The notes under the pieces are model-generated. The model was not told the origin of the DNA. It searched no databases and saw nothing but the letters and a program-made list of their open reading frames with translations. From positions 1 to 28,015 of the IMG/VR virus record IMGVR_UViG_3300010354_007616: 28,015 nt of DNA; one strand, 5' to 3'. Below, in pieces: positions 1,036 to 28,015 of this stretch. Made by a program: the position numbers and the translations under genes. The DNA is from a virus. How positions within the stretch are numbered: position 1 is the first letter of the stretch; every line of letters begins with the position of its first letter.

Positions 1036-1131
1036 GGTAGACTCCTCCGGGAGAGCGGATAAAGTTGGATAGATAGGGGCTCTCCATCATTCTTATACCC
1101 GTACGAAGACCCAAACTTGCCAGGAGGCCAG
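1036..1131. promoter_or_regulatory. Divergent intergenic region between the minus-strand pair and the RNA polymerase gene
   Basis: These 96 bases separate two divergent start codons and probably hold control signals for at least one direction. At the right edge AGGAGG (1122-1127) is the ribosome binding site for the polymerase gene, and at the left edge GGAGGAG serves the minus-strand ORF. A TATAAG hexamer on the minus strand (plus-strand complement at 1092-1097) is a possible -10 element for the minus-strand pair, but no convincing -35 lies at the usual distance. On the plus strand TAAAGT at 1060-1065 is an even weaker candidate. The TTTCAA element seen in the other two intergenic gaps is absent. 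If this gene is transcribed by a phage-specific enzyme, the promoter may not resemble a host one. Confidence 0.4.
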
Positions 1132-14246: not shown

Positions 14247-16199
14247 ATGATGCAGCTGGTCCGTAAAATCGAGGGTCCGAAGTTCGAGAAGGTGGCGGCC
14301 AAGTTCTTGCTGAGCGAGAACCCGTCGACCTACGCGAGTGAGCTGCTGGCCCACCTGTACAAGCAGCACCCCTACCTGGGCCAATACCAGGTCAACCTCT
14401 CGATTGAGGGCCAAGACGACAGCCTCGGCTACATGTACGGGCTCTTTACGGTGCAGCCCGCAACTGAAGAGCAGACCCCCATGTCCCCGGGAATGATGAG
14501 CCAGGCTGGGCAGGCCAAGCCCGTAGTCCTCCGCATCCCCGTCATCGTCGACAATAAGAAGGCCCACTCCTTCGACGTGTTCATCTCGCCTGGTGGCGCG
14601 TTCATGCCGCTGAGTGAGACACGTGTTGCTGCTGCGCTGTTTCAGGCCAGCCCCTACGGAAAGGCCGAGGTGTCGGAGCAAAAGCTCACGGCCGACGATC
14701 AGATGCAGGACTACCGTACGGACGCGGGCCCCGGTACTGAGATGGGCCGCGCCTTCTACATGAGCAAGATGTCCAGCGTGCTCGACAAGATGGCGTCACA
14801 CATCGACCAAGACGTTGCACAGAACTACCTGGAGCAGCTTTCACGGGATCACCACCTGGTGTCCGCCATCAAACTGAACCCCCAGTTTGCTGACGCGGTC
14901 CTCAAGATCGACCAGGCCTCGATGCAAAAGACCGCTGCGGCGGAAGGACAGGATTGGGACATCGACGTGGCCGTCTACAGCAAGGCGCCGGGCGGTTACG
15001 ACGTCCTGTGTGGGTCCTATGACGGGCAGGTCCACCTCACCAAGATCAGCAACGCAAAGGCGGAGTCCCTGCCACTCGATGTTCGACAGACAGTTTTGAA
15101 CAAGGGTGCGGACATGGTGGTGGCCCACGACCACCAGCCCCTCGAAGAGGTGGAGAAGACGGCTTCGCTCAGACACGCCGATGAAACCGGTGTCTACTCG
15201 GTCATGAACAAGGCGGGTTCCGCGCAGAGAGCCGTAGTGATCAAAGAGGTGATGCGGCTCAACGGGGAGCTATCTGATGGTGTGCTGGTGATCGGGCCAG
15301 CCGGAACTTCTCTTCAGGAGAAGGTTGCGGGGGTCAGGTGCGGGGACGTCGACCTAGCGTCGATCAATGGGGCGACTCCTCGTGGGGAGGGTGTGTTCGT
15401 GACGTCCAAGGGCGTGATCGAGCCCATCAAGATCGCCAGCATCATCACGCAGCGGGATGATGTTACCTACCTGTATGAGCACCCGTTCTACGGGATGGGG
15501 CAGCTTAAACTGGCGAATGTCCGGTACCCCGTGCACATCAGCGGGAACGACTACCTGTTTCCCAAGGATGCGAAGTTCGTCCCCACCACCCCGGGGCTCG
15601 GCTACGCGGACGACCTGACGACTGTCGACAAGGTGGCGAGTCGGCGGGACCTGATCAATCAGGTTCAGCTCCTGTCCGATGGGTCGGAGTTCACGTTCCG
15701 TGGCTCCCCTATGGGAGCCCACAAGATTGAGAATGTCAAAGAGGCGCAGGCACTTTTGACACTTGGCCTTCTGGGTGACTCCGCCGTGTCTGCGATGGAC
15801 AAGCTGGCCAAGGCCAAGAAAAAGGGCGCGGTCATGTTCGTGGCGGCGAGGCACTACGGAAAGTCGGACAAAGTCAAGAAGGCGTCGGCCGAGCCGGTTG
15901 ACGTGAGCGGGATTCGCGTGGATCTTACCAAGGAGGCGGCCGCTCTGTCGGGGTCCGACACGGTGGATTCGGTCCTGTCACTCAACTTCATTACCCCGGA
16001 GAACATCCAGGGGTACATTGACTGCCTGCCCGAGTACGAGACTGCGGTGCGTAAGTTGGCCGAATTGTTGATCGGTGTCCGCCTCGGTCTGGCGGACGTG
16101 CCAGAGTCGGCGGTATCGTCGGCTCTCCAGGGCATGGAGCGCGCGATCATCGGCCTGAAGAAACTGCAGATCAGGGTGGGGCTGGAGAATCGTGCGTGA
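14247..16199 (+). CDS. Large virion-type protein of unknown function, 650 aa
   Basis: Not recognised as a named family. It is the first gene of a long coupled run with morphogenesis-like genes, so a structural role is likely by position. The sequence is soluble, mixed alpha/beta, with no clear membrane segment, signal peptide or enzyme motif. The second half contains a beta-rich region (about residues 330-450). It is notable for repeated short K-[TVML]-A motifs (near residues 15, 180, 230, 310, 470 and 520), more than expected for its length by eye; they could mark processing sites. Two adjacent ATG codons (14247 and 14250) are both possible: GAGG ends four or seven bases upstream. The stop codon overlaps the next start as GTGA. 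Confidence 0.85.
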   Translation: MMQLVRKIEGPKFEKVAAKFLLSENPSTYASELLAHLYKQHPYLGQYQVNLSIEGQDDSLGYMYGLFTVQPATEEQTPMSPGMMSQAGQAKPVVLRIPVIVDNKKAHSFDVFISPGGAFMPLSETRVAAALFQASPYGKAEVSEQKLTADDQMQDYRTDAGPGTEMGRAFYMSKMSSVLDKMASHIDQDVAQNYLEQLSRDHHLVSAIKLNPQFADAVLKIDQASMQKTAAAEGQDWDIDVAVYSKAPGGYDVLCGSYDGQVHLTKISNAKAESLPLDVRQTVLNKGADMVVAHDHQPLEEVEKTASLRHADETGVYSVMNKAGSAQRAVVIKEVMRLNGELSDGVLVIGPAGTSLQEKVAGVRCGDVDLASINGATPRGEGVFVTSKGVIEPIKIASIITQRDDVTYLYEHPFYGMGQLKLANVRYPVHISGNDYLFPKDAKFVPTTPGLGYADDLTTVDKVASRRDLINQVQLLSDGSEFTFRGSPMGAHKIENVKEAQALLTLGLLGDSAVSAMDKLAKAKKKGAVMFVAARHYGKSDKVKKASAEPVDVSGIRVDLTKEAAALSGSDTVDSVLSLNFITPENIQGYIDCLPEYETAVRKLAELLIGVRLGLADVPESAVSSALQGMERAIIGLKKLQIRVGLENRA

Positions 16200-16999
16200 A
16201 CCATCAGCCACATGAGTACTGGCTCAAGTACATGCTCCTGTTTTCGGGAGCGACCTTGGACCAGATCGTGGCGACGGCTCAGCTCTACCAGATGGTGCCT
16301 CCTACTCTTGCGTATCTGCGGGCACTGAGGGACCAGCTAGAAGAAACGAAGCCGTCCCCATTCCGCATGACCAGCGGCGCGACGCGTGCGTGGGTCAGGC
16401 GTCAGCGCGTCATGTCGATGGTTAACAACGACCCCGCGGCCGTGGAGGCGCGGACTCTATTATCCGATAATAAACTTCGTCCGATCCTAGAAACCTTGTT
16501 GATGACGGACATCGACCTCAACAAGATGGTGACGCACATCCACAACATCACTGGCCGCGCCGTTTCCAAAGAAGTGGTCGACAAGTACCGGCACTACTTC
16601 TGGAACCGCGACATCATGTCGATGGCGGATTGGTCCGCATACCTGGAGGACTATCCGGGCGGCAAAGATCTGATGTCCTGTCGGAAGCAGGGCGAGGAGT
16701 TCGCGCTGTGGAAGTTGGGGCACCGTGTCGAGCTGTCCAAGCAAGAGATCCTACAGACCATCATGCACGAGTCAGCCATGCGGTTTGTAGAACTCAACAG
16801 CTTCCACAACGGTATGAAGACCGCGATGGCGGCCAAGTTTTGGGCCGACAATGTATTCAGATCAGTCGAGGCGCTTGACCGGACCGGAGATTCTGTCAAA
16901 CAGGTGGTCGACAATCTTCGAGAGGTCGCCATCAAGCTGGGCAGGCGAGACATCTCGAGCGTGGAGCACGTCCGCAAACAACCGAAGGATAAGTCATGA
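16196..16999 (+). CDS. Unknown alpha-helical phage protein, 267 aa
   Basis: Not recognised. The sequence is strongly helical and rich in aromatic and charged residues, for example KYRHYFWNRDIMSMADWSAY at about residues 140-160, with no transmembrane segment. An N-terminal helical segment (about 18-50) could be a DNA-binding or protein-interaction module but lacks a clear helix-turn-helix signature. The start is a GTG overlapping the previous stop (GTGA), with GGAG about eight bases upstream; no in-frame ATG lies nearer than residue 12. The 3' end overlaps the next gene as ATGA. Such overlaps indicate translational coupling, so it is probably made in step with the 650- and 123-residue proteins. 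Confidence 0.82.
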   Translation: MNHQPHEYWLKYMLLFSGATLDQIVATAQLYQMVPPTLAYLRALRDQLEETKPSPFRMTSGATRAWVRRQRVMSMVNNDPAAVEARTLLSDNKLRPILETLLMTDIDLNKMVTHIHNITGRAVSKEVVDKYRHYFWNRDIMSMADWSAYLEDYPGGKDLMSCRKQGEEFALWKLGHRVELSKQEILQTIMHESAMRFVELNSFHNGMKTAMAAKFWADNVFRSVEALDRTGDSVKQVVDNLREVAIKLGRRDISSVEHVRKQPKDKS

Positions 17000-17367
17000 C
17001 AACAGCAGATTTTATGAAGGCGTTCGAGTCGGCAGCCGAGCAGTTCAATTCTGGGGCCATCATCATGGCGCCACCGCCACAGTTCGTGTTGTCGTCCACG
17101 AAGATTGACGGAGTTCGATCAGAGTACTGCTTGGGGGACTCTCACATCAAGTACCACTTCTGGCCAGACCCTGCGTTTCCGGAGAACTTCCAGGAAAGGC
17201 TTGCGTCGGCGTTCAAGCCCTTCCCTCCCAATACCGTCGTGATTGAGTACGTTCCAGAGGTCGATAGCTGGTACACTCACGTGCAGGATCTGCCGCTCGG
17301 GGCCAGTCCCGAGTTGGCGGAACAGCTTCTTAAAAAGGCGTCTGCGGCGGTTCGGGATGGCAGATAA
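16996..17367 (+). CDS. Small acidic phage protein of unknown function, 123 aa
   Basis: Not recognised. It is compact and mixed alpha/beta, with conspicuous aromatic residues in the middle (KYHFWPDPAFPENF, then VVIEYVPEVDSWY) and a helical C-terminus containing LLKKASAAV, one of the K-x-A type motifs common in this region. Its ATG overlaps the preceding stop as ATGA, and AAGGA stands about six bases upstream. The 3' end overlaps the next gene by 11 bases. Size and position would suit a tail-completion or head-tail joining protein, but nothing specific supports that. Confidence 0.82.
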   Translation: MTTADFMKAFESAAEQFNSGAIIMAPPPQFVLSSTKIDGVRSEYCLGDSHIKYHFWPDPAFPENFQERLASAFKPFPPNTVVIEYVPEVDSWYTHVQDLPLGASPELAEQLLKKASAAVRDGR

Positions 17368-18193
17368 GAAAGAACTACCGTACCTAAAGCAGGTGGCCCT
17401 CGCAGCGCCGGCTTTTGGTGCTAAGTCCTTGCTGGCAGATCTGCCGAAAGGGACAATTGAGCAGGCGGTAGAGAGGAAGTTATCGGGAGCCCCTGAGTCC
17501 TTTGGAAGTCTCCTCCGGCAGGGCGGTCTGGGGCGCGGCGGTGGCCGAGCCCTCGGCAGCGCCATGGGCATCCTGACCGCGCCGTTCTATCTCAAGGGTA
17601 TCCAGCTGGCTGGATCAAAAGATCCGACCGAGCGCAAAAAGGGAATCGGGCTGATCGCCGGTAGCGGCGCTGTAGCGGTGGGCCAGAAGGGGTTGCTGGA
17701 AGGCTATAGGGTGGGGCGAATTGAAGGACTCAACCCAGCTATGGCGGCCGGAAAAGGCGCTAAGCTGGGGCTATTCCGCGCCGTCTACAAGCTACCCATC
17801 ACGCTGGCCATGGCCGCGAGTCTGGTGAAGGCCCACAAGGATAAGGACCCCTCCGTCTACAAGAAGTACGTCCAACCGGCTCTGGTGGGCGGTGCTATCG
17901 GTGGCCTAAGTAGAACGGCTGAGAATGTATTCGAATCGGGGGCTCCCAAGAACCTGAAGGCCTTGGGGGGCGCCCTTCGAAGGTCTGGGCCAGCCGCGGC
18001 TGGTGGTGTTGCGGGCGGCTTGCTGGGTGGTTTGGTTCTGGCGGGCGCGGTCGATATCGCAAACAAGTTCATGAGTCGCCACAAGGAAAAGAACTCCAGC
18101 GCCGCCTTCGACGACGTGCTGATGGCGTTGCCTCCCACCGAGAGGGCGCGGGTTGTGCAGCTTCTAGAAGATCGACTTAGTCGGATGAGGTAG
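17357..18193 (+). CDS. Glycine/alanine-rich protein with hydrophobic segments, 278 aa
   Basis: Not recognised. It has several glycine/alanine-rich hydrophobic stretches: GLIAGSGAVAVG near residue 100, LPITLAMAASL near 150, ALVGGAIGGL near 175, and a long AAAGGVAGGLLGGLVLAGAV near 215. These suggest membrane interaction or glycine-zipper packing. Phage proteins of this kind can be internal virion proteins that enter the host envelope during DNA delivery, or tape-measure fragments; this one is too short for a full tape measure. The ATG at 17357 is preferred because it gives a short overlap with the previous gene; an earlier GTG in frame would overlap by more than 120 bases. The ribosome site is weak (GGCGG), so translation is probably coupled. 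Confidence 0.8.
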   Translation: MADKKELPYLKQVALAAPAFGAKSLLADLPKGTIEQAVERKLSGAPESFGSLLRQGGLGRGGGRALGSAMGILTAPFYLKGIQLAGSKDPTERKKGIGLIAGSGAVAVGQKGLLEGYRVGRIEGLNPAMAAGKGAKLGLFRAVYKLPITLAMAASLVKAHKDKDPSVYKKYVQPALVGGAIGGLSRTAENVFESGAPKNLKALGGALRRSGPAAAGGVAGGLLGGLVLAGAVDIANKFMSRHKEKNSSAAFDDVLMALPPTERARVVQLLEDRLSRMR

Positions 18194-18199
18194 TGTCGA

Positions 18200-19972
18200 A
18201 TGAGCCTGCTGCGCTTTATGGAAAAGCACGCTCAGACCCCGCCTCCCGCACCGCAGGAGCGCGGGAACGACGTCGCGACTATGAGGCCAGAATTCAAACC
18301 GCTACCGCACCAAGTATCGGCGATTGAAAAATTATTCGATAATAAGGGTCGCATGATCCTGGCCCACCAGATGGGGTCCGGAAAGACCGTTACATCAATC
18401 TACGGTTTCGAGAAAATGAGGCAGGCCGGTAAGGCTCAGAAAGCCCTCGTGGTAGTGCCGGCCGGTCTACGCGAAAACTTTGCCCGCAGCGGTGTTGAGA
18501 AGTTTACCACCTCTTCGCTGCAAGTCGTCGGTTCCTCAGAAGAGAAGAACCGGCTCAAGGACTACGTCCGTCCGGACGAGATCCGCCCTGACAAGACCTA
18601 CACGATCGTATCGTACGAGCAGCTGCGCCGGGACCCTGTCGGCATGATGCAGCGTACCGGCGCCGACACCATCATCGCGGACGAGTTCCACAAGACCCGC
18701 AACGACCAGTCCCAGATCTACCGGTCCATGATGCAGGCTCGGCAGTTTGCCACCAACTTCATCGGGATCACGGGGTCGTTGATCAACAACGAGCCCGGTG
18801 AGATCGCCAAACTTCTAAACCTATCCGAGGGCGGGCCGCCGGTCTCTCCCAGGGACTTCGTGAGCCGTTACACCCGTACCATCGGCACGACTGAGGGGTT
18901 TGGTGGCGGAAAGAAGCGGGTGATCGGGATCAACAACCCGGAAGAATTTGCTCTCAAGGTCGTGCCGCGCGTAGATTACTTTGAGACCGGTGACATCCCG
19001 GGCGCCGCCATGCCCCGCAAGGACGTCAAGAATGTGTATGTTCCGATGTCAAAGGAACAGTACCACCTGTACCAGCTGGCCCTCAACAAACTGGGCCCAG
19101 TCCAGGAGTACGTTACTCGTCGGGATCCCAACATCACGCTGAAGGAAGCGGATAGGCTGTTTACGCAGCTGACCCAAGCACGCCAGATCAGCAACTCTGT
19201 GGCCATGGGCCGTAAGGACGTATCTATCGAGCAATCGGCAGAGAGGACTCCCAAGGTCCACAAGGTCTTGCAAGATACGGTTCAGCACCTGCAGGATAAG
19301 CCCGACAACTCGGTAGTCCTGTACAGTAACCTGATCCGAGGCGGTGTTGACGTATTGTCCGCGGGACTCAAGAAAGCGGGGATTCCGCACGCCCTCTTCA
19401 TCGGAGCAGGCACTGAAGTGGGGGACGGTAAGGTCACCAACGTGAGCCGCTCTCAAGGCGTGGAAGACTTCAAGGCCGGTAAGGTCAAGGTGATCGTGCT
19501 GTCCGGTGCGGGGGCTGAGGGTCTAGATCTCAAAAACGCCACCGCCTTCTATTCGCTCGACGGGCACTTCAATCCTGAGCGAATCATGCAAGCAGAGGCC
19601 CGCGCCCGCCGCCTAGGTGGCCAAGCGCAGCGACCTCCGGAACAGCGGGTAGTTGATGTGCGCCGATACCAATCGGTCGTACCGTCCTCTGAGCAGCCGG
19701 GCGTGTTTGGCAAGATGCTGGGTAAGAAGACCCCCCAGACTACCGACGAGTGGGCCTACAATGTGGCGGGCCGGAAGTTCAGAACCTCCAGGCAGTTCTA
19801 CGACGTCCTGCACAAGCCCCACAAGTATGTCCGCAAAGAGTACTACACTCGGAGAGACGGAACCCGCGCGGTGCGGTATCTTTACGCGCAGCAAGTAAAC
19901 CAACCTCGCGGTCTGTTTGCTAAGCTGTTCGGGCCCAGAGAGCCTAAAGCTCCACCACCAGTTACCTTTTGA
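18200..19972 (+). CDS. SNF2-family (superfamily 2) ATPase/helicase-like protein, 590 aa
   Basis: ATP-driven double-stranded DNA translocase of the SNF2 type. Conserved motifs appear in order: a Q-like PLPHQVSAIEKL near residues 35-46; Walker A HQMGSGKT (56-63, K62); LVVVPAGL near 91; Walker B-type DEFH (161-164); ITGSLINN near 190; a second RecA domain with VVLYSNLIRGG near 370; VLSGAGAEGLDLKNA near 435; and the arginine-finger motif QAEARARR at 464-471. The C-terminus is basic and may bind DNA. The family includes RapA, which recycles RNA polymerase, and phage helicases. A RapA-like partnership with the polymerase at 1132-7398 is attractive but inferred. The gene sits among morphogenesis genes and its N-terminus carries an MEKHAQ sequence like the K-x-A motif of its neighbours, so virion packaging is also possible. 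ATG at 18200, GAGG about nine bases upstream. Confidence 0.92.
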   Translation: MSLLRFMEKHAQTPPPAPQERGNDVATMRPEFKPLPHQVSAIEKLFDNKGRMILAHQMGSGKTVTSIYGFEKMRQAGKAQKALVVVPAGLRENFARSGVEKFTTSSLQVVGSSEEKNRLKDYVRPDEIRPDKTYTIVSYEQLRRDPVGMMQRTGADTIIADEFHKTRNDQSQIYRSMMQARQFATNFIGITGSLINNEPGEIAKLLNLSEGGPPVSPRDFVSRYTRTIGTTEGFGGGKKRVIGINNPEEFALKVVPRVDYFETGDIPGAAMPRKDVKNVYVPMSKEQYHLYQLALNKLGPVQEYVTRRDPNITLKEADRLFTQLTQARQISNSVAMGRKDVSIEQSAERTPKVHKVLQDTVQHLQDKPDNSVVLYSNLIRGGVDVLSAGLKKAGIPHALFIGAGTEVGDGKVTNVSRSQGVEDFKAGKVKVIVLSGAGAEGLDLKNATAFYSLDGHFNPERIMQAEARARRLGGQAQRPPEQRVVDVRRYQSVVPSSEQPGVFGKMLGKKTPQTTDEWAYNVAGRKFRTSRQFYDVLHKPHKYVRKEYYTRRDGTRAVRYLYAQQVNQPRGLFAKLFGPREPKAPPPVTF

Positions 19973-19980
19973 GGACCGGT

Positions 19981-20529
19981 ATGCCGTTTACGTCTGAGAA
20001 ACAGCGCCGGTTCATGTTCGCGGAGCACCCCAGAATCGCTAAGCGCTGGGCTCACGAGAACCCAGAAGGTGATGAGGGTTTGCCAACGTACGCACATGGT
20101 GAGTCCACTAGCCCCGCTCTAAAGAAGAAGTGGGATCGCGTCAAACAGAAACTCAAAGGACAGTCGGAGGACAAGATGAAGTACAACGAGAAAGGTGTGG
20201 CGATGCCCGGTAAGGTTAATCCCTACGCCAAGAAGGAGAAGAAGGCCAGCCTAAAGGAGCAGCTTCTCCACAAGCTCATGAAGAAGAAGGATGCCGCGAA
20301 GGAGAAGAAGGCCGGCGTAAATCTCCGCGACCTCATCAAATCGGCGCAATCGATGGGCCCTCAGAATGTGCGTCCCTCGAAAGACGCGGCGGTCAGCTGC
20401 ATGACCTGCAAGTACTTCACACCGCTGTCAGGTAACCGATCGGGGCCCGGTATGTGCAACGTAGGTTCACGCCCGGTGCCCGTGAAGGGGACCGATGTGA
20501 GCGACGACTACCAGTCGAAGATGGGCTAA
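19981..20529 (+). CDS. Small basic phage protein with N-terminal MPFTSEKQRRFMFAEHP and C-terminal cysteine motif, 182 aa
   Basis: The N-terminus (MPFTSEKQRRFMFAEHPRIA) matches a short motif found at the start of many small phage proteins of unknown function. The middle is lysine-rich and helical (about residues 45-120). The C-terminus carries C140-x2-C143-K-Y-F followed by C159, exactly the spacing of the first three cysteines in the 67-residue protein at 21415-21618; the fourth position is Ser here. The full set in the neighbour resembles the four-cysteine pattern of high-potential iron-sulfur proteins, so this copy may bind metal poorly or use another ligand. GAGG six bases before the ATG at 19981 decides the start; a TTG 12 bases upstream has no site. 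Nucleic-acid binding is plausible from the basic charge. Confidence 0.82.
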   Translation: MPFTSEKQRRFMFAEHPRIAKRWAHENPEGDEGLPTYAHGESTSPALKKKWDRVKQKLKGQSEDKMKYNEKGVAMPGKVNPYAKKEKKASLKEQLLHKLMKKKDAAKEKKAGVNLRDLIKSAQSMGPQNVRPSKDAAVSCMTCKYFTPLSGNRSGPGMCNVGSRPVPVKGTDVSDDYQSKMG

Positions 20530-20551
20530 TGCCCCGTCGCAGGAGCCAGGC

Positions 20552-21145
20552 ATGTTTAACAACAAAGGTAAGGCCAAGCTGTTGGCCCGGTTCGCCAAGG
20601 AGAAGAAGGCCGACGGCATGATGTCGGAGGTCGAGGACGAGGGCGAAGCGATGGAGTCGGAGGGCGGCGGCATGGATGCCCCAGGCATGCTGTGCCAGTT
20701 GCTGGGCACGCTGTTGGCCATGCGTCAGAACTACCATTCGAGTCATTGGCAGATCAGCGGTCCGACCTTCTACGGGGACCATCTTCTGTTTGAGAAGCTG
20801 TACGGGTCGGTGAGCGAAGATATCGACACGTTGGCGGAGAAGATGGTGGCGAAGTACGGTTCTCAGATGGTGAGCGCGGTCAAGTTGAGCCACATCCAGG
20901 CTCAGGTGGTCTCCGATCTAGCGCAGCAGCCGGACCCATACCACAGGGGTTTGGAATCTGAGAAGGCCTTGCAGGCGTTGACCAAGAATGTGTACCACGG
21001 GCTCAAGGAGTCGGGACAGCTGTCTCTCGGAATGGACGACTTCTTGATGGCCATGGCCAACACACACGAGACCAACGAGTACCTGCTGGGGCAGCGCGTG
21101 GCTGGTGGGCCTTCGATGGGGCCGATGGCACACAAGGCAATGTAG
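20552..21145 (+). CDS. Dps/ferritin-like protein, 197 aa
   Basis: Dps proteins are ferritin-fold dodecamers that oxidise and store iron and can protect DNA. After a charged extension of about 45 residues (lysine-rich, then acidic), the sequence shows the Dps core: NYHSSHW, then GPTFYGDHLLFEKLY, then EDIDTLAEK. Spacing reproduces the inter-subunit ferroxidase set of E. coli Dps (H51, H63, D67, D78, E82) as H65, H77, E81, D92 and E96, with glutamate replacing one aspartate. The C-terminal helix (FLMAMANTHETNEYLLGQRV) also fits. Most residues for iron oxidation are therefore kept, although activity is not proven. AGGAG stands six bases before the ATG. The gene lies in a virion-type run, so the protein may be packaged with DNA or protect it in the infected cell. 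The extension is unusual and might target the protein to the capsid. Confidence 0.85.
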   Translation: MFNNKGKAKLLARFAKEKKADGMMSEVEDEGEAMESEGGGMDAPGMLCQLLGTLLAMRQNYHSSHWQISGPTFYGDHLLFEKLYGSVSEDIDTLAEKMVAKYGSQMVSAVKLSHIQAQVVSDLAQQPDPYHRGLESEKALQALTKNVYHGLKESGQLSLGMDDFLMAMANTHETNEYLLGQRVAGGPSMGPMAHKAM

Positions 21146-21160
21146 CGGATTGGGGTCGTG

Positions 21161-21406
21161 ATGGTGGATTTGAGCGAGCAGGTCAAGAAGGCAGCCGCCG
21201 AACTCCGGGTGAAGTCCCTCAAGGACATCCAGGTGGAAACGGCTAAGACGTGGGCTGGCCGAGCCTGCGTGGCCTCAGGCCTTGGACTGAAGCAAGACGC
21301 CATCGAGTATGCTCACGAGGCCATCGAACACGCGGCCCTGTCCGGCAAAGAACGGCTCCTGACGGACATTCGCGCGTCTCTGCAGGCGTGCGGGGTAGAG
21401 GTTTAG
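21161..21406 (+). CDS. Small helical protein of unknown function, 81 aa
   Basis: Not recognised. The 81 residues are almost wholly predicted helix, with a lysine/alanine-rich start (EQVKKAAAELRVKSLKDI) and a middle part (TWAGRACVASGLGLKQDAIE) that resembles a single tetratricopeptide-like hairpin, possibly for protein-protein contact. It follows the Dps-like gene by 15 bases and abuts the cysteine-motif gene. A GTG immediately before the ATG could also start it; a GGGG tract five to six bases upstream favours the ATG at 21161. Confidence 0.75.
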   Translation: MVDLSEQVKKAAAELRVKSLKDIQVETAKTWAGRACVASGLGLKQDAIEYAHEAIEHAALSGKERLLTDIRASLQACGVEV

Positions 21407-21414
21407 TGGGTGAC

Positions 21415-21618
21415 ATGCACCAGTACGTTCGGAAGGAGTTGAATCCTCCGGGGCTGGTCAAGTCGGTGGAGGAGGGTAGGTCATGCAGGTCCTGCTCGTT
21501 CTTTTTGATGCGGATGGCGGACCCACAGGGCGCCGGGTCCTGCTCGGCGGTTAATGTGGAAGTTCCGGTTAGGGAAGACTTCGTGTGTTCCCTGCACCAC
21601 GGAGGAGATGATGAATGA
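21415..21618 (+). CDS. Four-cysteine small protein, HiPIP-like spacing, 67 aa
   Basis: Four cysteines are arranged C24-x2-C27-x15-C43-x14-C58, with S-F-F after the second and a glycine two before the third. High-potential iron-sulfur proteins use a similar CxxC...GxC...C layout to hold a 4Fe-4S cluster, so an iron-sulfur or zinc site is likely; which one cannot be told from sequence. The domain closely matches the C-terminus of the 182-residue protein upstream (same first three spacings and a shared VPV), indicating a duplicated module. An alternative GTG start at 21406 overlaps the preceding stop and has GAGG four bases before it; ATG at 21415 is the conservative choice. The 3' end overlaps the next gene by eight bases. 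The GC-rich codon use matches the neighbours. Confidence 0.78.
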   Translation: MHQYVRKELNPPGLVKSVEEGRSCRSCSFFLMRMADPQGAGSCSAVNVEVPVREDFVCSLHHGGDDE

Positions 21619-22741
21619 CGCCACACGCAGCAGGTTGATTGAGAAACTGGCCAAAGTCGATAAGACCGAGATGGGGGCAGGGCTCGCCTTGGGCGGGTTG
21701 GCTCCCTTGGCTCTCTCAAGAAACAGGTTCCTGAACACCGACCTGCCCGGGACCAGGCTGACCCGTGAACAACTTCGCGGGCAAGTCCGTAGAGGCGACA
21801 TCCTGCTGACCGGGAAACCGGCAAGCATGTCCAGCAAGATTGACCGCGCGATCGCCCTGTCATCCGGAACACCCAACGCCTACCACGCCGCCCAGATCGC
21901 CGGAATTAACGAGCACTCTGGGAATATCTTTGTTCACGACCACGGCCCTTCAGGGACACAGTTGAGCCGAGAGCTTGACGAGACCAAGAACGTCATCACT
22001 GTCCTGCGCCCCAAGAACCCAGAGATTGGGGAACGAGCCATCGCCAACATGGAGGCGCGTGGAAAGTTGACTGGCAAGATCTATGAAGGGCTTCGTGAAC
22101 GCGGCGTGCCAGAGGATGTGCTCGGCAAGAACCTGAAGAGTTTCTACTCTCCCTACAAGCCTGCGGCCAAACAACTGATCGCGGGCATCCCGGGAGGCGC
22201 CAAGGCCACGGAAGAGTCTCTGGCAATCAAGCTGGACGCTCTCAAGAAGATGGAGGTCGACCTGCCCAAGATCCTGGACGACACCGCCCAACACCTGAAG
22301 GTGCACGGAAAGCTCCCCGAGGGCACCCCGCTCAAGACCTTGAACGACATCTGCACGACTGCGCTGGCGTCCGCGGGGGCTCCCGTCGGTAAGGGAACGA
22401 ACGTCTCCGAGGCCATGGGCGTCGACTTTCTGCGTGCTGCCGGCCCTGGTGCCGATAAGGCTTATGACGTTGTTGGGCACTACATCCCTGAATACCAGGC
22501 CACGGCAGGAAAGTGGGCCACGCGGTTCAGTAAGGCCCTTCACCCTACCGTGATGGCCGCCGCAGGTATTGGCGCCGGTATCATCGGCACTAAGGTGGTG
22601 AAAAGCTTAGTCCAGCAGCCCAAGATCAAGTCGACTTTGGATAACTTCAAAGAAAAGTTGGACGCCAAGGGCACAAACCTCCCCAAGGCCCCGAAGATGC
22701 CGAGCATCCCTAAGGCGCCGCGCATGCCGTCGCTCACATGA
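21611..22741 (+). CDS. Possible permuted NlpC/P60-like (papain-fold) enzyme, 376 aa
   Basis: The N-terminal half resembles permuted NlpC/P60 (YiiX/YaeF-like) proteins, which are cysteine hydrolases or acyltransferases acting on peptidoglycan peptides or lipids. Seen in order: RRGDILLTG (G62, D63), an AYHAAQIAG block with candidate catalytic H92, and NDICTTALASAG with candidate nucleophile C248. In permuted members the histidine precedes the cysteine, as here. A hydrophobic glycine-rich segment (about residues 315-335) and a proline/lysine/methionine-rich tail follow, and residues 18-35 are also hydrophobic, so membrane contact is possible. If correct, it could open the host envelope at entry or act at lysis; position among virion-type genes favours entry. 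GGAGG ends five bases before the ATG at 21611, so that ATG is preferred over the one three bases earlier. The family call is moderate. Confidence 0.6.
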   Translation: MNDATRSRLIEKLAKVDKTEMGAGLALGGLAPLALSRNRFLNTDLPGTRLTREQLRGQVRRGDILLTGKPASMSSKIDRAIALSSGTPNAYHAAQIAGINEHSGNIFVHDHGPSGTQLSRELDETKNVITVLRPKNPEIGERAIANMEARGKLTGKIYEGLRERGVPEDVLGKNLKSFYSPYKPAAKQLIAGIPGGAKATEESLAIKLDALKKMEVDLPKILDDTAQHLKVHGKLPEGTPLKTLNDICTTALASAGAPVGKGTNVSEAMGVDFLRAAGPGADKAYDVVGHYIPEYQATAGKWATRFSKALHPTVMAAAGIGAGIIGTKVVKSLVQQPKIKSTLDNFKEKLDAKGTNLPKAPKMPSIPKAPRMPSLT

Positions 22742-22943
22742 TTGTGACGGACCACCTCTGAAAGGTTAGGCGGCATCCCGGTAGGATCGTCTGTGCGATG
22801 GTCTTGACGGCGGTCTTCTCCGGCTGCGTCAACGGCCACCGTATATGCAGCACTATCGAGGAGCCTTGATCCTCGTAGCGATCCAGTGTATTGCCGATCG
22901 CTCGGGACAACGTTTCCACGATCTCGGAGTACCGCGTGTTCAA
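22734..22943 (-). CDS. Lone minus-strand gene, unknown function, 69 aa
   Basis: Not recognised. The frame fills the space between the 376-residue gene and the terminase gene, overlapping each by eight bases (the terminase overlap assumes its GTG start). The protein reads as a plausible small alpha/beta domain: a helix (RYSEIVETLSRAIGNTLDRY), a strand (SSIVLHIRW), a second helix (EKTAVKTIAQTIL) and a final strand (CRLTFQRWSVTIM). Its codons end mostly in G or C like the other genes, which a chance frame need not do. The proposed start is TTG at 22943 with GGTGG three bases upstream, a rather short spacing; a shorter form is possible. It would be transcribed toward the 376-residue gene. Confidence 0.55.
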   Translation of the reverse strand: MNTRYSEIVETLSRAIGNTLDRYEDQGSSIVLHIRWPLTQPEKTAVKTIAQTILPGCRLTFQRWSVTIM

Positions 22944-24609
22944 GGTCCACCCCCGTCAGTCCAAGGGATCCCACAGGACGTCCTTGGAATTGTTTCCGTC
23001 TGAGTTCACGTCCCATATGATGCGGATGCCGCACGAGGGGGTGCTGGCCCCATTCTCGTTTACGGGTCGTGAATACCTAGTCCCCATCTACGACACCCCG
23101 CACCCGCGCACGCTGTTGATGTTCGCCCGCCAGTCCGAGAAGTCAACGACTCTCGGCAACAAGATCCTGGCACTGTCGTGCCTGCGCCACCACTTCAAGT
23201 CCCTGTTTGTGAGCCCGTCTCAACAGCAGACCGAGGTATTCAGTCGTGACAAACTGTCGTCCCCGCTCAACCTGTCGGAAGACCTGCGCACGTTCTTGGA
23301 CAAGAACGCCAACAACGTGCTGTTCAAGCGGTTCATCACCGACTCCAGCGTGACGTTGAGGTACGCGTTCCTGCACGCCGACCGTACCCGTGGTATCCCG
23401 GCAGACGCACTGTTCCTGGACGAGATCCAGGACATCCTGACGGACGTGATCCCGATCATCGAGGAGTGCATGTCGCACTCCCCCTACCAGCTTATGACGT
23501 ACTCCGGCACCCCCAAATCACTCGATAATACGATCGCCTACTACTGGAACACCTTCTCGACCCAGAATGAATGGATGATCCCGTGCGACCGATGCGGTGG
23601 GGCGGACTATCGGCATTGGGACGTGATCGGCTACGACAATATCGGCCCAAACGGATTGATCTGCAGTAGGTGTAAACGGGATATCGACCCACGTCATCCC
23701 GAAGCACAGTGGGTATCGCAGCGTTCGGCGCGTTGGCTGCAGACGCCAGACGGGATTCCGTTTGAGGGATATCGAATCCCGCAGATTCTGACCAACTGGG
23801 TGAACTGGCCCAAGATCTTGGACAAGAAGAGCCGGTACGGAAAGGCACAGTTCTACAACGAGGTGTTGGCGCTACCGTATGACTCCGGCGACAAACCCAT
23901 CAAACGGGAGACGCTGGCGGAACAGTGCGGCAGTATCTCGTTCGCGGACTCCGTCAACTTCGCGGGTAGGTCCACCCTGTACATGGGGATCGACTGGGGC
24001 GGCACCACCAACGCGGGTGGAGGCGAGGAGGGGAGCGTCAGGAAGTCCGCACCCGCCAGCAGCTACACCGTGGTGTCGATCGGTGGCTACCTGGGCGGTA
24101 AGTTTCAGTACATCTACTTCAAGCGGTTTGAGGGTGAGGAAGCGGTCATGGACAACATGCTGCCCGTCATCATCCAGCTGGTTGACCGATACAAGATCTC
24201 GATCATCGGGACCGACTATGGTGGTGGCCTCCATCCTAATGATCGTCTGATCCGACAGTTTGGTATCCGCCGGGTAGCCCGCTACCAATACGTCAACACC
24301 CGCAAGATCTACTTCAACAAGGACCTGCACCACTGGATGGTCAACCGGACCGAGGCGCTCATGGCCCTCATCAACGCCATCAACCGTAAGGACGAGATCC
24401 GGTTCCCCACATTTGGTGACTGGGAGTTCCCTTTCGCGCAGGACCTGCTGTCAGTCTTCACCGAGTACAACAGCTCCAACACCCAGATGATCATCACGAA
24501 GGCACCGGGTTCCTCCGACGACACCATGCACTCCATGATGTACTGCTGGCTGGCCAGTATGATCGAACACCCACGGCCAGACATCCTGGCGGCTGACCGA
24601 TCCCCCTAG
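22936..24609 (+). CDS. terL: Terminase large subunit (DNA-packaging ATPase and nuclease)
   Basis: Motor that cuts concatemeric phage DNA and pumps it through the portal. Numbered from the GTG at 22936: Walker A ARQSEKST with K69; Walker B LFLDEIQD with D162 and E163; coupling motif SGTP near 195; a zinc-ribbon-like insertion with C217, C220, C243 and C246; then an RNase-H-fold nuclease with D353 (GIDWGG), D427 (GTDYGG) and D528/D529. The zinc ribbon between ATPase and nuclease, followed by FEGYRIPQI and FYNEVLALP, resembles the GpA/lambda-type branch of terminases. The GTG is chosen because GGAG stands six bases before it and conserved-looking sequence starts before the first ATG (23017), which lacks a ribosome site. 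A TTG at 22891 is also in frame. No small subunit gene is recognised nearby. Confidence 0.94.
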   Translation: MFKVHPRQSKGSHRTSLELFPSEFTSHMMRMPHEGVLAPFSFTGREYLVPIYDTPHPRTLLMFARQSEKSTTLGNKILALSCLRHHFKSLFVSPSQQQTEVFSRDKLSSPLNLSEDLRTFLDKNANNVLFKRFITDSSVTLRYAFLHADRTRGIPADALFLDEIQDILTDVIPIIEECMSHSPYQLMTYSGTPKSLDNTIAYYWNTFSTQNEWMIPCDRCGGADYRHWDVIGYDNIGPNGLICSRCKRDIDPRHPEAQWVSQRSARWLQTPDGIPFEGYRIPQILTNWVNWPKILDKKSRYGKAQFYNEVLALPYDSGDKPIKRETLAEQCGSISFADSVNFAGRSTLYMGIDWGGTTNAGGGEEGSVRKSAPASSYTVVSIGGYLGGKFQYIYFKRFEGEEAVMDNMLPVIIQLVDRYKISIIGTDYGGGLHPNDRLIRQFGIRRVARYQYVNTRKIYFNKDLHHWMVNRTEALMALINAINRKDEIRFPTFGDWEFPFAQDLLSVFTEYNSSNTQMIITKAPGSSDDTMHSMMYCWLASMIEHPRPDILAADRSP

Positions 24610-24611
24610 TC

Positions 24612-24626
24612 CATTACTCGGTAATG
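24612..24626. repeat. Inverted repeat CATTAC-TCG-GTAATG after the terminase gene
   Basis: Perfect six-base arms around a three-base centre, two bases after the terminase stop codon. It is too weak, and lacks a following T-run, to be a convincing intrinsic terminator. The inner arms ATTAC/GTAAT are the same as those at 14234-14246, so a shared protein-binding site or processing hairpin is possible. Confidence 0.5.
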
Positions 24627-24637
24627 TCGAGACGGGC

Positions 24638-24667
24638 TTTCAACTCCGGACGAGCCGGTGCTACCAT
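24638..24667 (+). promoter_or_regulatory. Candidate promoter for the head-gene run from 24692
   Basis: TTTCAA (24638-24643) is followed after 18 bases by TACCAT (24662-24667), in the context GTGCTACCATGCTG. The TAnnAT element fits the loose -10 of high-GC bacteria. Transcription would start about 20 bases before the GTG at 24692, leaving a short leader containing the GAGAGG ribosome site. The same TTTCAA with 17-base spacing occurs at 14185-14213. Confidence 0.4.
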
Positions 24668-24691
24668 GCTGTAGGTTGCGAGAGGTTTACC

Positions 24692-25693
24692 GTGGACCTA
24701 GAACAGTACCTGCTTTCAAAATCTGCTTGCGGCGCTGACTGCGGTTGCGGGTGCAGCGGGAAAGTCGATCCCGACACCCTGAAGATGTACGGCCAAAAGG
24801 CCGCCACGCAGTTTGTGGGTGAGCGCGTCCCCATGAACGACTCGATCGTTCAGATGGCCAAAGAGGCCAACCTCAACCACGAGCAGGTTAAGCGTGTCGT
24901 TGAGCACGCCAACAACCTGGCCTTCTCTCAGATGTTCAAAGCCGGGTTCTCTCAAAACATCACGTTCCCGATGGCCGACACCTCAGTGGTCATGCAGAAT
25001 CTGGAGGCGCCCATGCAGGTCAAGCAGGCCAGTGTCGAGATCGTGAGAGGCGAGCGGTATGTTCCGGGCCAAGAGCGAACCTCATTGGAAGCTGCTTTCG
25101 GGTACAACGCCGTCACCCGCGCCATCGAGAAGGTGGCGTCCCCCAAGGTCGACCGACCCGTGATGGTGCGGCAATACTTGGACAAGGTCGGGCAGGTTCG
25201 TCAGGCGCAATCCGACATGGAGATCTTGGCCGACTCATTTGAGCTGAAGCTGGTCGAGCTGGACCGACTGGTAAAGACGGCAGCGGCCGAAGGGTTCTCC
25301 GCGGAAGTTATTGGGTCTTGTGTGGACTCCGCGAAGCCTTCTGAGCTGATGCGGGGATTTCTGTCGGAGCGGTACGGTGCCAGGGTTCACATGGACTCAA
25401 TCACCAAACTGGCGCAGATGGGGATGGAGGTGGCTCCAAACCCGATTACCGACACAGTCGGTATCCTGCAGGGCATGCAGGAGCAGCTCTTCCAGTTGAG
25501 GGACTCCGTAGAGGCCGCGATGGCCTCAGTTGCACAGATGCTGTCCGTTATGCAGCAACCGATGCAGCCGAACCCTACGGCGGAACTGTTCTCCACCAAG
25601 CAGGCTCCCATGCCGGCCCAGCCCGCACCCATGCCCGTGGCACCGGACCAGCAGATGCCGGCCCCACCCATGTCGCCTCTGGAAACCTACTAG
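24692..25693 (+). CDS. Head-region protein of unknown function with N-terminal cysteine cluster, 333 aa
   Basis: Not recognised. It opens the last gene run, which ends with the prohead protease, so a capsid-assembly role (scaffold, minor head or internal protein) is likely by position. Near the N-terminus C13, C17, C19 and C21 form a tight C-x3-C-x-C-x-C cluster in a glycine-rich setting, suggestive of metal or iron-sulfur binding. The central part (about 60-270) is mainly helical and contains K-x-A motifs (IEKVAS, LVKTAA, ITKLAQ). The last 50 residues are a Pro/Met/Gln/Ala-rich low-complexity tail like that of the portal. The start is a GTG with GAGAGG six bases upstream. The stop codon overlaps the ribosome site of the next gene. 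Confidence 0.82.
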   Translation: MDLEQYLLSKSACGADCGCGCSGKVDPDTLKMYGQKAATQFVGERVPMNDSIVQMAKEANLNHEQVKRVVEHANNLAFSQMFKAGFSQNITFPMADTSVVMQNLEAPMQVKQASVEIVRGERYVPGQERTSLEAAFGYNAVTRAIEKVASPKVDRPVMVRQYLDKVGQVRQAQSDMEILADSFELKLVELDRLVKTAAAEGFSAEVIGSCVDSAKPSELMRGFLSERYGARVHMDSITKLAQMGMEVAPNPITDTVGILQGMQEQLFQLRDSVEAAMASVAQMLSVMQQPMQPNPTAELFSTKQAPMPAQPAPMPVAPDQQMPAPPMSPLETY

Positions 25694-25702
25694 GAGCCCC
25701 CG

Positions 25703-26311
25703 ATGTCCACGCTAGTTAAAATGGCGTCGGCACCCGCGCTTCACCCCGACATCAGACGGGCCGTGGAGACTTCGCGGGACGCGTGGAACCGCGAAGGACA
25801 CGCCAAGACTGCCAACGTGGTGGCCAAGGTGCTGGCGGCTCCGTTCAAGGCGGTGGGGCGCGGCGTAAAGAATGTTCTGTTTGGGCGTGTCGCTAAGTCT
25901 GGACCGTTTCGAGGAGCCCGGATGGTAGCGGTGAAGGGCGAGAAGGCCTGGACGCCAATTGACCGCCGAGCCTTCCTCGGCATCAAATCCGGTAGGGTCC
26001 CTGGCGAGGCCATGGTCGTCCAGAAAGATGGCAACACAATCTACCTAATGAGAAACTTCCAAGAGGGCGGCCTGGTTGGTGCGGCCAAGCGCAATCCACT
26101 CAAGGCTGTTGCTGTTGGCGGTGGCGGGTACCTGGTGGCCACCAGCCCAACCGCTCGCGGTATGGTTACGGGTCTGATCCCCAAGATGCCGGAGAACCCC
26201 GTCAGCGAAGAAGTCGCGGCACAGTTTGCAACCCCGTCAGCAGCACCAGTTGGCTTGGCAAAGGCCGACTGGAAGCCTACTGTCACAACCATCGTCCCCA
26301 AGAGAGTGTAG
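25703..26311 (+). CDS. Unknown head-region protein sharing an ALHPDI motif with the prohead protease, 202 aa
   Basis: Not recognised. Its N-terminus (LVKMASAPALHPDI, residues 4-17) closely matches LVKTASAALHPDI at residues 27-39 of the prohead protease two genes on. A basic stretch follows (about 40-75), then a central beta-like region (GARMVAVKGEKAWTPIDRR) and a glycine-rich segment (about 130-150) that may touch membrane. No catalytic motif is seen. AGGAG overlaps the previous stop and stands six bases before the ATG, an arrangement repeated exactly at the next gene. Probably an internal or minor head protein, inferred from position. Confidence 0.8.
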   Translation: MSTLVKMASAPALHPDIRRAVETSRDAWNREGHAKTANVVAKVLAAPFKAVGRGVKNVLFGRVAKSGPFRGARMVAVKGEKAWTPIDRRAFLGIKSGRVPGEAMVVQKDGNTIYLMRNFQEGGLVGAAKRNPLKAVAVGGGGYLVATSPTARGMVTGLIPKMPENPVSEEVAAQFATPSAAPVGLAKADWKPTVTTIVPKRV

Positions 26312-26320
26312 GAGTCGTCG

Positions 26321-26971
26321 ATGAGCCGTTTCAGCGAAGCAGTCAAGCTTGCCAGTCGTAGGTCAGGTGGACGGTCGTGGGAGCATGACCCCGGCACCCC
26401 CAGGAACGTCTCTAGAAGTGAGAACCTGGCGGCGTCCCTTGAGAGCAAGTGGGGAAAGGCGGCTCCGCACGGATCTGGCCAGGCGTTCGATGCCCTTACA
26501 GAAAAGGTTGTCGAGGGCCCCAAGGGTCTGGCAAGGTTGAAACAAATCCTGACCAGTCCGGCAGCCAAGAAGTTCGGTCTGTTTGGTGTCGGGGCCCTGG
26601 GTATCGCGGGCGGTTTGGCGGCTGCGGACGCCATCCGCGATTCCATGAGCCACCGAGTCGGCAAAGACAAGGCCTTCAAGAACATGATCAAGGAGAACCC
26701 CTCGCTGGCCAAAGAGAACCCGGCCCACGTCAAGAAGGTGTTCAACACCCTCTACACCTTCAACAAGGACATGGCGAAGGACCCGTTGGTGGCAGGGTCG
26801 TTTGCTCGAAGGTCGATGCAGTTCAAGGAAGAGGGCATCCAGCCGATGGACGTCAAGACCTTGACCGAGATCCAAAAGAACATGCGCGACGCCAAGGGCC
26901 GGGACTCCCTCGCGAAGGGCGTGATCGGCGACCTCGGGACGATCGGCGGGCTGTCTAGGTTTGCTGGTTAG
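26321..26971 (+). CDS. Unknown head-region protein, 216 aa
   Basis: Not recognised. It begins MSRFSEAVKLASRRSGGRSW, carrying the K-x-A type motif near the N-terminus. A short hydrophobic glycine/alanine-rich segment (about residues 85-105, FGLFGVGALGIAGGLAAADA) could be a membrane-active helix, and the rest is charged and helical. AGGAG overlaps the preceding stop codon and lies six bases from the ATG. A long minus-strand frame overlaps this gene and its neighbours but lacks comparable translation signals. The size and single hydrophobic segment would suit an ejected internal protein, which is speculation. Confidence 0.8.
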   Translation: MSRFSEAVKLASRRSGGRSWEHDPGTPRNVSRSENLAASLESKWGKAAPHGSGQAFDALTEKVVEGPKGLARLKQILTSPAAKKFGLFGVGALGIAGGLAAADAIRDSMSHRVGKDKAFKNMIKENPSLAKENPAHVKKVFNTLYTFNKDMAKDPLVAGSFARRSMQFKEEGIQPMDVKTLTEIQKNMRDAKGRDSLAKGVIGDLGTIGGLSRFAG

Positions 26972-26980
26972 GGGGGATTG

Positions 26981-27247
26981 ATGTTGGCAGGGCGGCGAGA
27001 GAGAATCCTCCACAAGCTGGCGCAGATGGTCGGAGCCCCTAAGCCTCCGACCAACCCTGCGGGTGCCCCGCAACTTGTGCCCCCTCCGATGGGCACGAAT
27101 CCGTTGACGGCCACCAGCATGACTCCCAAGCCCAACCAGGCCCCCGCCATCCCGGCAGGCGGTGCTGCCACACCAATGCAGACCCCGTTCAATACGCCAA
27201 GACCTCTCAACACCCCCGCCGTCCAAATGACCAAGGCAACGTACTAG
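26981..27247 (+). CDS. Proline-rich small protein of unknown function, 88 aa
   Basis: Not recognised. After a basic helical start (AGRRERILHKLAQMVGAPKP), which again carries the K-x-A type motif at K12-L-A14, the remaining 65 residues are Pro/Ala/Thr/Asn-rich and probably disordered. A G-rich tract (from 26970) ends shortly before the ATG at 26981 and acts as the ribosome site; a TTG three bases earlier is in frame. The stop is 13 bases before the protease start. A short helix plus disordered tail directly upstream of a prohead protease could suit a scaffold or core component, but this is inference from position. Confidence 0.72.
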   Translation: MLAGRRERILHKLAQMVGAPKPPTNPAGAPQLVPPPMGTNPLTATSMTPKPNQAPAIPAGGAATPMQTPFNTPRPLNTPAVQMTKATY

Positions 27248-27260
27248 TGAGGGCGCCCGA

Positions 27261-28015
27261 ATGCTAAAGCTCATCACACTGCCGGGCGTAAGTGACGCAG
27301 GGGACATCCTGGTACAGGCCATCGTCCCGGATGCCCCGTTGGTGAAGACGGCGTCCGCGGCGCTACACCCGGATATCCAGAAGTACCTCAATGACCTAAA
27401 GTCCAGACCCGAGAAGCTGTACGTGCTGGTCAACGCGCTGGGTGCGGGCGAGTGGTACGGCAGCAACATCAACGGCGATTACTTTGAGGAACGGGAACTC
27501 AACACTCCGCAGGGCTCAGAGTTTGGGTTCCGCACGTTCTTGGACTCGGGTGTCTACCGACATCACGTCAACAAGGACATCAAGAAGTCGTTCGGTAAGG
27601 TGATGGTGTCGGTCTACAACCCCATCATGCACCGGGTTGAACTGGTCATTGAGGTTGACCGTGCAAAGGCAGCTCAAGAGGGCCACGGAGATCTGGTCGA
27701 CCAACTGGACGCCGGTAAGAACCCCGCCGTCTCGATGGGCTGTCGGGTAGCGTTCGACGTCTGCAGTATCTGCGGCAACAAGAGCAAGACCCGCAACGAC
27801 TACTGCCTGCACGCCAAGACCATGATGAACCAGGTCTTGCCGGACGGTAGGAAAGTCTACGTCCTGAACCCCAACCCCAAATTCTTCGACATCTCATTTG
27901 TGCTGATTGGCGCGGATCGCACCAGCTACGCCATGGCTAAGGTGGCGTCGGTGTATGGCGTATCACACGGTAATACTCTGTCGGCGGAGCTGGCGGAAGA
28001 GTATGGGATGCGTGA
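27261..28015 (+). CDS. Prohead (capsid maturation) protease, 3' end outside window
   Basis: Serine-protease-like protein that would cleave scaffold and capsid proteins during head maturation. The frame is open to the last base, giving 251 residues. Candidate catalytic residues are H101 or H102 in YRHHVNKDIKKSFG and S158 in AVSMGCRV, the order and approximate spacing seen in phage prohead proteases. A zinc-finger-like insertion follows the serine (C168-x2-C171-x10-C182-x-H184), then a strand-rich NPNPKFFDISFV block. The N-terminal region includes LVKTASAALHPDI (27-39), shared with the 202-residue protein upstream and a possible self-cleavage site. GAGGG is seven bases before the ATG. The major capsid protein would be expected just beyond the window. 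Confidence 0.75.
   Translation, partial: MLKLITLPGVSDAGDILVQAIVPDAPLVKTASAALHPDIQKYLNDLKSRPEKLYVLVNALGAGEWYGSNINGDYFEERELNTPQGSEFGFRTFLDSGVYRHHVNKDIKKSFGKVMVSVYNPIMHRVELVIEVDRAKAAQEGHGDLVDQLDAGKNPAVSMGCRVAFDVCSICGNKSKTRNDYCLHAKTMMNQVLPDGRKVYVLNPNPKFFDISFVLIGADRTSYAMAKVASVYGVSHGNTLSAELAEEYGMR

Follow-up and report, generated by a model that had tools for sequence, protein, structure and literature searches.

The window analysed here is the whole of a 28,015-base virus record from IMG/VR (IMGVR_UViG_3300010354_007616, positions 1 to 28,015), and its subject is a short motif, lysine, any residue, alanine (K-x-A), that recurs in proteins encoded from position 14247 onwards. The last gene of the window encodes a head (prohead) maturation protease. 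A preliminary description had noted K-x-A near the N-termini of eight head-region proteins, and all eight were found as quoted; the shortest, described as 88 aa, has the motif and is 89 aa long when read from its TTG start. The genes and predicted sites are listed below, a slash marking the predicted cut. The refined site pattern is [LIVMF]-x-K-not P-A-[SAGECQ], and expected numbers were obtained from composition-matched shuffles.

14247..16199, plus strand: acidic core- or scaffold-like protein of 650 aa with a predicted cleavage-site array (17 K-x-A, 4.6 expected; 7 refined sites, 0.48 expected)
14289..14297, plus strand: N-terminal site FEKVA/AK of the 650-aa protein (K-x-A kept in 10 of 16 distinct homologous N-termini, 2.4 expected)
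14787..14795, plus strand: internal site LDKMA/SH of the 650-aa protein (refined pattern)
14928..14936, plus strand: internal site MQKTA/AA of the same protein (refined pattern)
15156..15164, plus strand: internal site VEKTA/SL of the same protein (refined pattern)
15630..15638, plus strand: internal site VDKVA/SR of the same protein (refined pattern)
15930..15938, plus strand: internal site LTKEA/AA of the same protein (refined pattern)
16053..16061, plus strand: internal site VRKLA/EL of the same protein (refined pattern)
18200..19972, plus strand: SNF2-family ATPase, predicted packaged cargo (PF00176, E 4e-21)
18224..18232, plus strand: N-terminal site FMEKHA/QT of the SNF2 protein, predicted cut after residue 11 (K-x-A in 15 of 16 distinct N-termini, 5.0 expected)
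21644..21652, plus strand: N-terminal site LIEKLA/KV of a 376-aa protein (from sequence)
24692..25693, plus strand: core-like protein of 333 aa with a site array (8 K-x-A, 1.7 expected; 4 refined sites, 0.19 expected)
24719..24727, plus strand: N-terminal site LSKSA/CG of the 333-aa protein (refined pattern)
25130..25138, plus strand: internal site IEKVA/SP of the 333-aa protein (refined pattern)
25274..25282, plus strand: internal site LVKTA/AA of the same protein (refined pattern)
25406..25414, plus strand: internal site ITKLA/QM of the same protein (refined pattern)
25718..25726, plus strand: N-terminal site LVKMA/SA of a 202-aa basic protein (K-x-A in 12 of 14 homologous N-termini, 5.6 expected)
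26345..26353, plus strand: N-terminal site AVKLA/SR of a 216-aa protein (K-x-A in 26 of 29 homologous N-termini, 12.2 expected)
27014..27022, plus strand: N-terminal site LHKLA/QM of the 89-aa protein (refined pattern)
27261..28013, plus strand: head maturation protease, 251 residues present, 3' end beyond the window (invariant H102 and S158)
27345..27353, plus strand: predicted self-cleavage site 1 of the protease, LVKTA/SA, K-x-A residues 29–31, cut after residue 31
27939..27947, plus strand: predicted self-cleavage site 2 of the protease, MAKVA/SV, K-x-A residues 227–229, cut after residue 229

When the proteins were compared with their shuffles, a check that the preliminary description had proposed, the genes from 14247 on contained 54 K-x-A where 32.2 were expected (z 4.3), and 13 instead of 5.8 within the first 40 residues (p 0.004). 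The genes before 14247 were at chance level (21 against 23.0). The refined pattern behaved similarly, with 19 occurrences against 2.9 downstream of 14247 and one against 1.9 upstream. The excess was due to the 650-aa and 333-aa proteins, in which the internal recurrence of the motif described earlier is real; in the SNF2, 202-, 216- and 376-aa proteins the motif was not significant singly, and its significance there comes from conservation in relatives, not from counts in the window. The terminase indeed lacks K-[TVLM]-A, as had been stated, having only KNA and KSA. The same statement for the spike protein was wrong, since KVA occurs three times and KLA once among its nine K-x-A, yet this number is at chance level (6.6 expected). 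Because the refined pattern was tuned on data of this type, independent tests in relatives carry more weight.

We therefore determined the distribution of K-x-A in 63 non-redundant relative loci binned by distance from the protease gene. The ratio of observed to expected numbers was 2.1 at 3 kb and 2.3 at 2 kb upstream and 1.0 at 1 kb, where the N-termini alone were still enriched (62 against 26.6). Over the 5 kb that begin with the protease gene it was 2.2, 2.2, 2.6, 2.1 and 1.9, and beyond that 0.9–1.3. A second rise, to 1.4–1.7, was seen at −8 to −7 kb, the position of the homologs of the 650-aa gene. As controls for the arrangement of residues we used A-x-K, R-x-A, KA, K-x-x-A and K-x-S, which were near or below 1 and had no such excess, and open reading frames (ORFs) of the minus strand, in which K-x-A gave 0.97.

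The N-terminal motif was also kept within homologous families, as the preliminary description had suggested should be examined. It was present in the first 45 aa of 58 of 63 distinct protease N-termini (12.2 expected) and in the first 60 residues of 42 of 44 distinct homologs of the 333-aa protein (14.4 expected); these loci share ancestry, so such counts are not independent events, and because ORFs were called mechanically some gene starts are wrong. The N-terminal regions of the SNF2 and 216-aa families were divergent apart from K-x-A, and full-length homologs of the 650-aa protein contained 9–17 K-x-A apiece. Control families were at chance level: terminase 6 of 47 (6.3 expected), g267 1 of 19 (2.3) and g279 7 of 11 (7.1). 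In the complete genome of Salmonella phage Arash, 24 refined sites were found in gp220–226 against 1.2 by shuffling, seven of them in gp220, the homolog of the 333-aa protein, and the remaining proteome was near chance.

The protease matched the head maturation protease family phrog_18299 (E 3.2e-9, 37.4 bits). Its fold, searched against BFVD, matched gp19 of Bacillus phage G (E 5.6e-17) and many named prohead proteases (E 1e-8 to 1e-6) with a probability of 1.00. H102 and S158 were invariant across a 48-sequence alignment and are probably the catalytic His and Ser. No relevant Pfam or NCBIfam match to the protease was obtained, and sequence searches with the protease and the major capsid protein (MCP) gave no relative of solved structure. 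Relatives of the protease were found in Arash (gp222, 48% identity), Vibrio phages D69, D181 and D148, phage G (gp19, 30% identity), Mycobacterium phages of the I3/Bxz1 group and at least 80 IMG/VR loci. In the relatives a few short genes separate the protease gene from the MCP gene downstream of it; the protease gene lies between the core genes and the MCP gene in loci L002, L005, L010, L021 and L027 and in Arash. The two conserved K-x-A sites of the protease lie at both edges of its domain: the AlphaFold (AF2) model is confident for residues 33–227, the confidence score pLDDT is below 50 before site 1, confidence is low from residue 228, and the flanks are predicted to be disordered. K227 and A229 were at least 90% conserved in the 48-member alignment.

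The MCP of relatives, modelled with an HK97 fold, has one conserved site near its start, TEAGKEKIA/ALGG in many and LVKEA/GA in Arash, located at residue 27–29 in Arash and Vibrio phages D69, D181 and D148. In the alignment, A occupies P1 in 34 of 39 homologs, with K two residues before in most. By N-terminal sequencing, the mature MCP of phage G has 255 of the 282 residues that its gene encodes (PMC5646251, Table 1), which places the cut after residue 27, with the loss of 27 residues. For cutting of MCP or scaffold in vivo, this shortening is the one published result. Residues 19–30 of this protein, TEEGRVALA/QAM, align without gaps to TEAGKEKIA/ALG, and the measured cut lies exactly after the aligned A.

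We also compiled a subsite profile over the 2,186 K-x-A found in proteins of the head cluster. From P5 to P2' it was [MLF]-[EVT]-K-[TLVQI]-A/[SEA]-A, which resembles the profile of a protease. The T4 prohead protease cuts at [L/I]-x-E, and herpesvirus assemblins favour an A/S cut. Prohead proteases already described in large phages follow a P3-x-P1 scheme; that of phage SPN3US reads A-x-E, with serine favoured at P1' (PMC10052503). A search of the literature for prohead cleavage at K-x-A returned nothing relevant, and no published cut-site consensus was found for phage G.

The motif, its localisation and conservation, the identity of the protease and the alignment with the measured MCP cut of phage G are direct observations. 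Given the aligned MCP site, the sites at the domain edges of the protease, the subsite profile and the P3-x-P1 precedent, it is very probable that the prohead maturation protease of this phage group recognises K-x-A and cuts there; cleavage at these sites in this phage is, by inference, well supported. During head assembly the protease would free itself at KTA/S and KVA/S, cut the core or scaffold proteins (650 aa, 333 aa and the products of genes that follow its own) at many sites, allowing the pieces to exit, remove about 27 residues from the MCP, and trim short N-terminal peptides from packed proteins, namely the SNF2 ATPase and the 202-, 216-, 89- and 376-aa proteins. These peptides would probably bind the core and be cut once they have brought the cargo into the prohead, like the capsid-targeting sequences (CTS) of T4. 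The earlier proposal of a capsid-targeting or processing tag was thus essentially right, processing being strongly supported and targeting something that we infer. As a cargo tag it was drawn too narrowly, because the motif is primarily a code for protease cut sites that also occurs in scaffold proteins, the protease and the MCP.

Several observations count against this interpretation. The phage G site V-A-L-A/Q agrees at P1 and has no K at P3, so the measured cut anchors P1, not P3. In the MCPs of Arash and D69 the phage G cut aligns to G, one residue past KEA, leaving an ambiguity of one residue. The model of the protease gave no significant match to solved structures in the PDB, and hhalign against T4 gp21 gave a probability of 0.2, a comparison of low power with a single sequence. 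The SNF2 proteins of Arash and D69 have no N-terminal K-x-A, yet the Arash protein (gp217) was found in virions, and the RNA polymerase of the window has no such site. Finally, the cut sites in this phage and in Arash are predicted ones.

Arash virions contain the beta and beta' subunits of RNA polymerase, a sigma factor, gp217, gp218 and gp220–226; the SNF2/DNA helicase gp217 was identified by 38 unique peptides, and both polymerase subunits were among the most abundant virion proteins (PMC10585845). Because gp217 is packaged without an N-terminal K-x-A, the N-terminal peptide is not universally needed for packaging of SNF2, which refines the earlier idea of a T4-like cargo tag on the ATPase. 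K-x-A does not mark virion proteins in general: taken together, those of Arash encoded outside the head cluster were not enriched in it. The coverage column of the virion table (PMC10585845, Table 2) looks implausible, giving primase 89.74% from two unique peptides, and was not used; as it looks unreliable, a test of N-terminal loss by peptide coverage was abandoned. The beta subunit starts with MPKSA/SE in Arash and MPKKA/SD in D69.

Outside the head families, the numbers of refined sites in contigs of three relatives (G001, G002 and G003, 173–180 kb) were those expected by chance beyond residue 30, and residues 1–30 held 12, 14 and 14 against 1.9, 1.9 and 2.1 expected; this enrichment was weak or absent in G004–G006. 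A single module, MNALEKYA/AK[KR]xLxxxL, recurs in many of these N-termini and was found as 32 distinct starts on 27 unrelated bodies, ten in G001, with one match in a reversed-genome control. A second K-x-A follows the module start in 19 of the 32 (6.9 expected). L13 is conserved to 94% and L17 to 81%, and both lie outside the search pattern, which makes their conservation independent. The ratio of synonymous to non-synonymous differences in codons 2–10 was 182:63 in G001 and 109:67 in another comparison, and in codons 12–20, where changes were mostly non-synonymous, 82:267. This synonymous bias and its reversal in the later codons indicate that the module peptide is under selection, and for the same reason a recent duplication of the DNA was ruled out. 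The DNA pattern of the module was found in nine IMG/VR contigs. Its bearers are small, most of 96–187 aa, and basic (mean net charge +0.155 and +0.123 per residue against 0.002 and 0.007 for all ORFs), and LEKYA/A fits the inferred head-protease consensus. The exact MNALEKYAAK module was not found in the window, whose N-terminal peptides are looser; some homologs of the 202-aa protein start with MNELEKQAAK, which resembles it.

Module genes form clusters of small, very basic and fast-changing genes at 98.0–101.3 and 114 kb in G001 (L094–L096), at 0–8.5 and 171–173 kb in G003 (L099, L107) and at about 9–18 and 124 kb in G002 (L116, L122). No similarity beyond the shared start was detectable among the clustered genes.

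The internal proteins of T4 are small and basic and have N-terminal targeting propeptides of 10–19 residues that are cut off by the prohead protease, and T-even relatives have other basic proteins with similar targeting peptides (PMC9026906). Together with this precedent, the enrichment of sites at protein starts beyond the head cluster and the occurrence of one start, MNALEKYAAK, on basic proteins with unrelated bodies suggest that N-terminal peptides direct cargo to the capsid. On balance we lean slightly towards a broader proposal, that the module of about 20 residues, MNALEKYA/AK[KR]xLxxxLxKxA, is a transferable general code by which many fast-changing small basic proteins, together with the SNF2 ATPase, are loaded into the head to be injected. 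Such a code would have evolved independently of its T4 counterpart and would work with a head protease of new specificity.

Other explanations of the motif were considered. Lysine- and alanine-rich amphipathic helices could yield K-x-A unaided, and the proteins are indeed rich in these residues and often not significant alone; this was refuted by the shuffles and by the A-x-K, R-x-A, KA and K-x-x-A controls, and the excess of synonymous over replacement changes in the module and its reversal in the following codons point the same way, so that chance or composition deserves practically no weight. The possibility of signal peptides with an A-x-A-like cut was rejected as the N-terminal segments are charged and have no hydrophobic core. 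K-x-A might instead be a docking motif for a scaffold or shell protein, many copies of which hold the core together. Docking would account for both the arrays in core proteins and the N-terminal copies on cargo, and the cut sites in this phage are predicted; it is nevertheless improbable, because the MCP of phage G is measurably shortened at the aligned residue, the P1' preference for S, E or A and the position of sites on either side of the protease domain are what one would typically expect of processing, and the terminase, which also docks on heads, has no N-terminal excess.

It is less easy to set aside the view that the sites are cut and that the N-terminal peptides of SNF2 and the small basic proteins address them elsewhere (the phage RNA polymerase or a replication compartment, for example) or serve only to keep them from acting too early. 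The Arash SNF2 protein, packaged without a site, agrees with it, as does the conservation of L13 and L17 past the first K-x-A, and capsid targeting is itself a prediction. We nonetheless regard this view as unlikely, since the module holds the head-protease consensus, the proteins that bear it resemble T4 internal proteins in their small size and basic charge, and the T4 targeting propeptides provide a precedent.

The cut-site system resembles that of T4 (gp21 and the CTS with IPI–III and Alt) in its prohead protease, the scaffold predicted to be cut at several places, the predicted N-terminal MCP propeptide and short N-terminal peptides common to small basic proteins with otherwise unrelated bodies (PMC9026906). 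It differs in that the predicted cut site is K-x-A/[SEA] and not of the glutamate type, the protease has no sequence relationship to gp21 that the low-power comparison could detect, more proteins are tagged per genome, the tag sequence is unrelated, and an SNF2 ATPase is among the predicted cargo. With gp245 of the phiKZ-like SPN3US it shares P3-x-P1 recognition, serine favoured at P1', multi-site propeptides, a C-terminal self-cleavage that is predicted here and an RNA polymerase in the head (PMC10052503), whereas the SPN3US site is A-x-E and most of its propeptides have 111–254 residues, compared with about 8–35 for the N-terminal ones here. Phage G has a homologous protease (gp19, by identity and fold) and MCP (gp27), a measured 27-residue MCP propeptide, and K-x-A near the ends of its protease and portal, but A at P3 of the MCP site. 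Arash and Vibrio phages D69, D181 and D148 have the same protease (43–48% identity), gene order, site arrays and MCP site; they differ in their split RNA polymerase, SNF2 without an N-terminal site, and the MNALEKYAAK module, which was not seen.

Such a code would allow head-bound, processed proteins to be predicted from sequence across a large uncultured phage group, giving hypothetical genes a likely role as core, shell or packed cargo. The shared start suggests that phages without a cultured host carry arsenals of proteins that are packed and probably injected, and would be a second, unrelated candidate targeting peptide beside that of T4 for loading phage heads.

One further gene of the window carries a weak site:

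20603..20611, plus strand: weak N-terminal site EKKA/DG of a Dps/ferritin-like protein (from sequence; the close relative L002 has VKEA/DG at the same place)

This protein (20552–21145), encoded between the SNF2 and terminase genes, is a candidate DNA-binding cargo. A search for relatives of the 376-aa protein gave none, and its peptidase label was not confirmed. A conserved protein of about 335 aa, encoded apart from the protease gene (G003 104047–105057, G002 52720–53730, G001 176759–177751, G004 57243–58289, G007 22056–23096), has 3–5 refined sites in four of five genomes and is predicted to be a further core or scaffold component; in G007 its gene lies just upstream of the portal–RNA polymerase block. 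Arash gp242, a virion protein with five sites, has a similar pattern and no detectable similarity to it. At 1117–7398 the window encodes RNA polymerase beta and beta' fused into one protein of 2,093 aa with the catalytic motif NADFDGD; a single frame of about 2,060–2,114 aa was present in 7 of 7 relatives checked, and the polymerase is split in Arash and D69. Two small proteins, encoded at 19981–20529 and about 21403–21618, have similar C-x2-C...C segments (SCMTCKYF... and SCRSCSFF...) that possibly bind metal or Fe-S.

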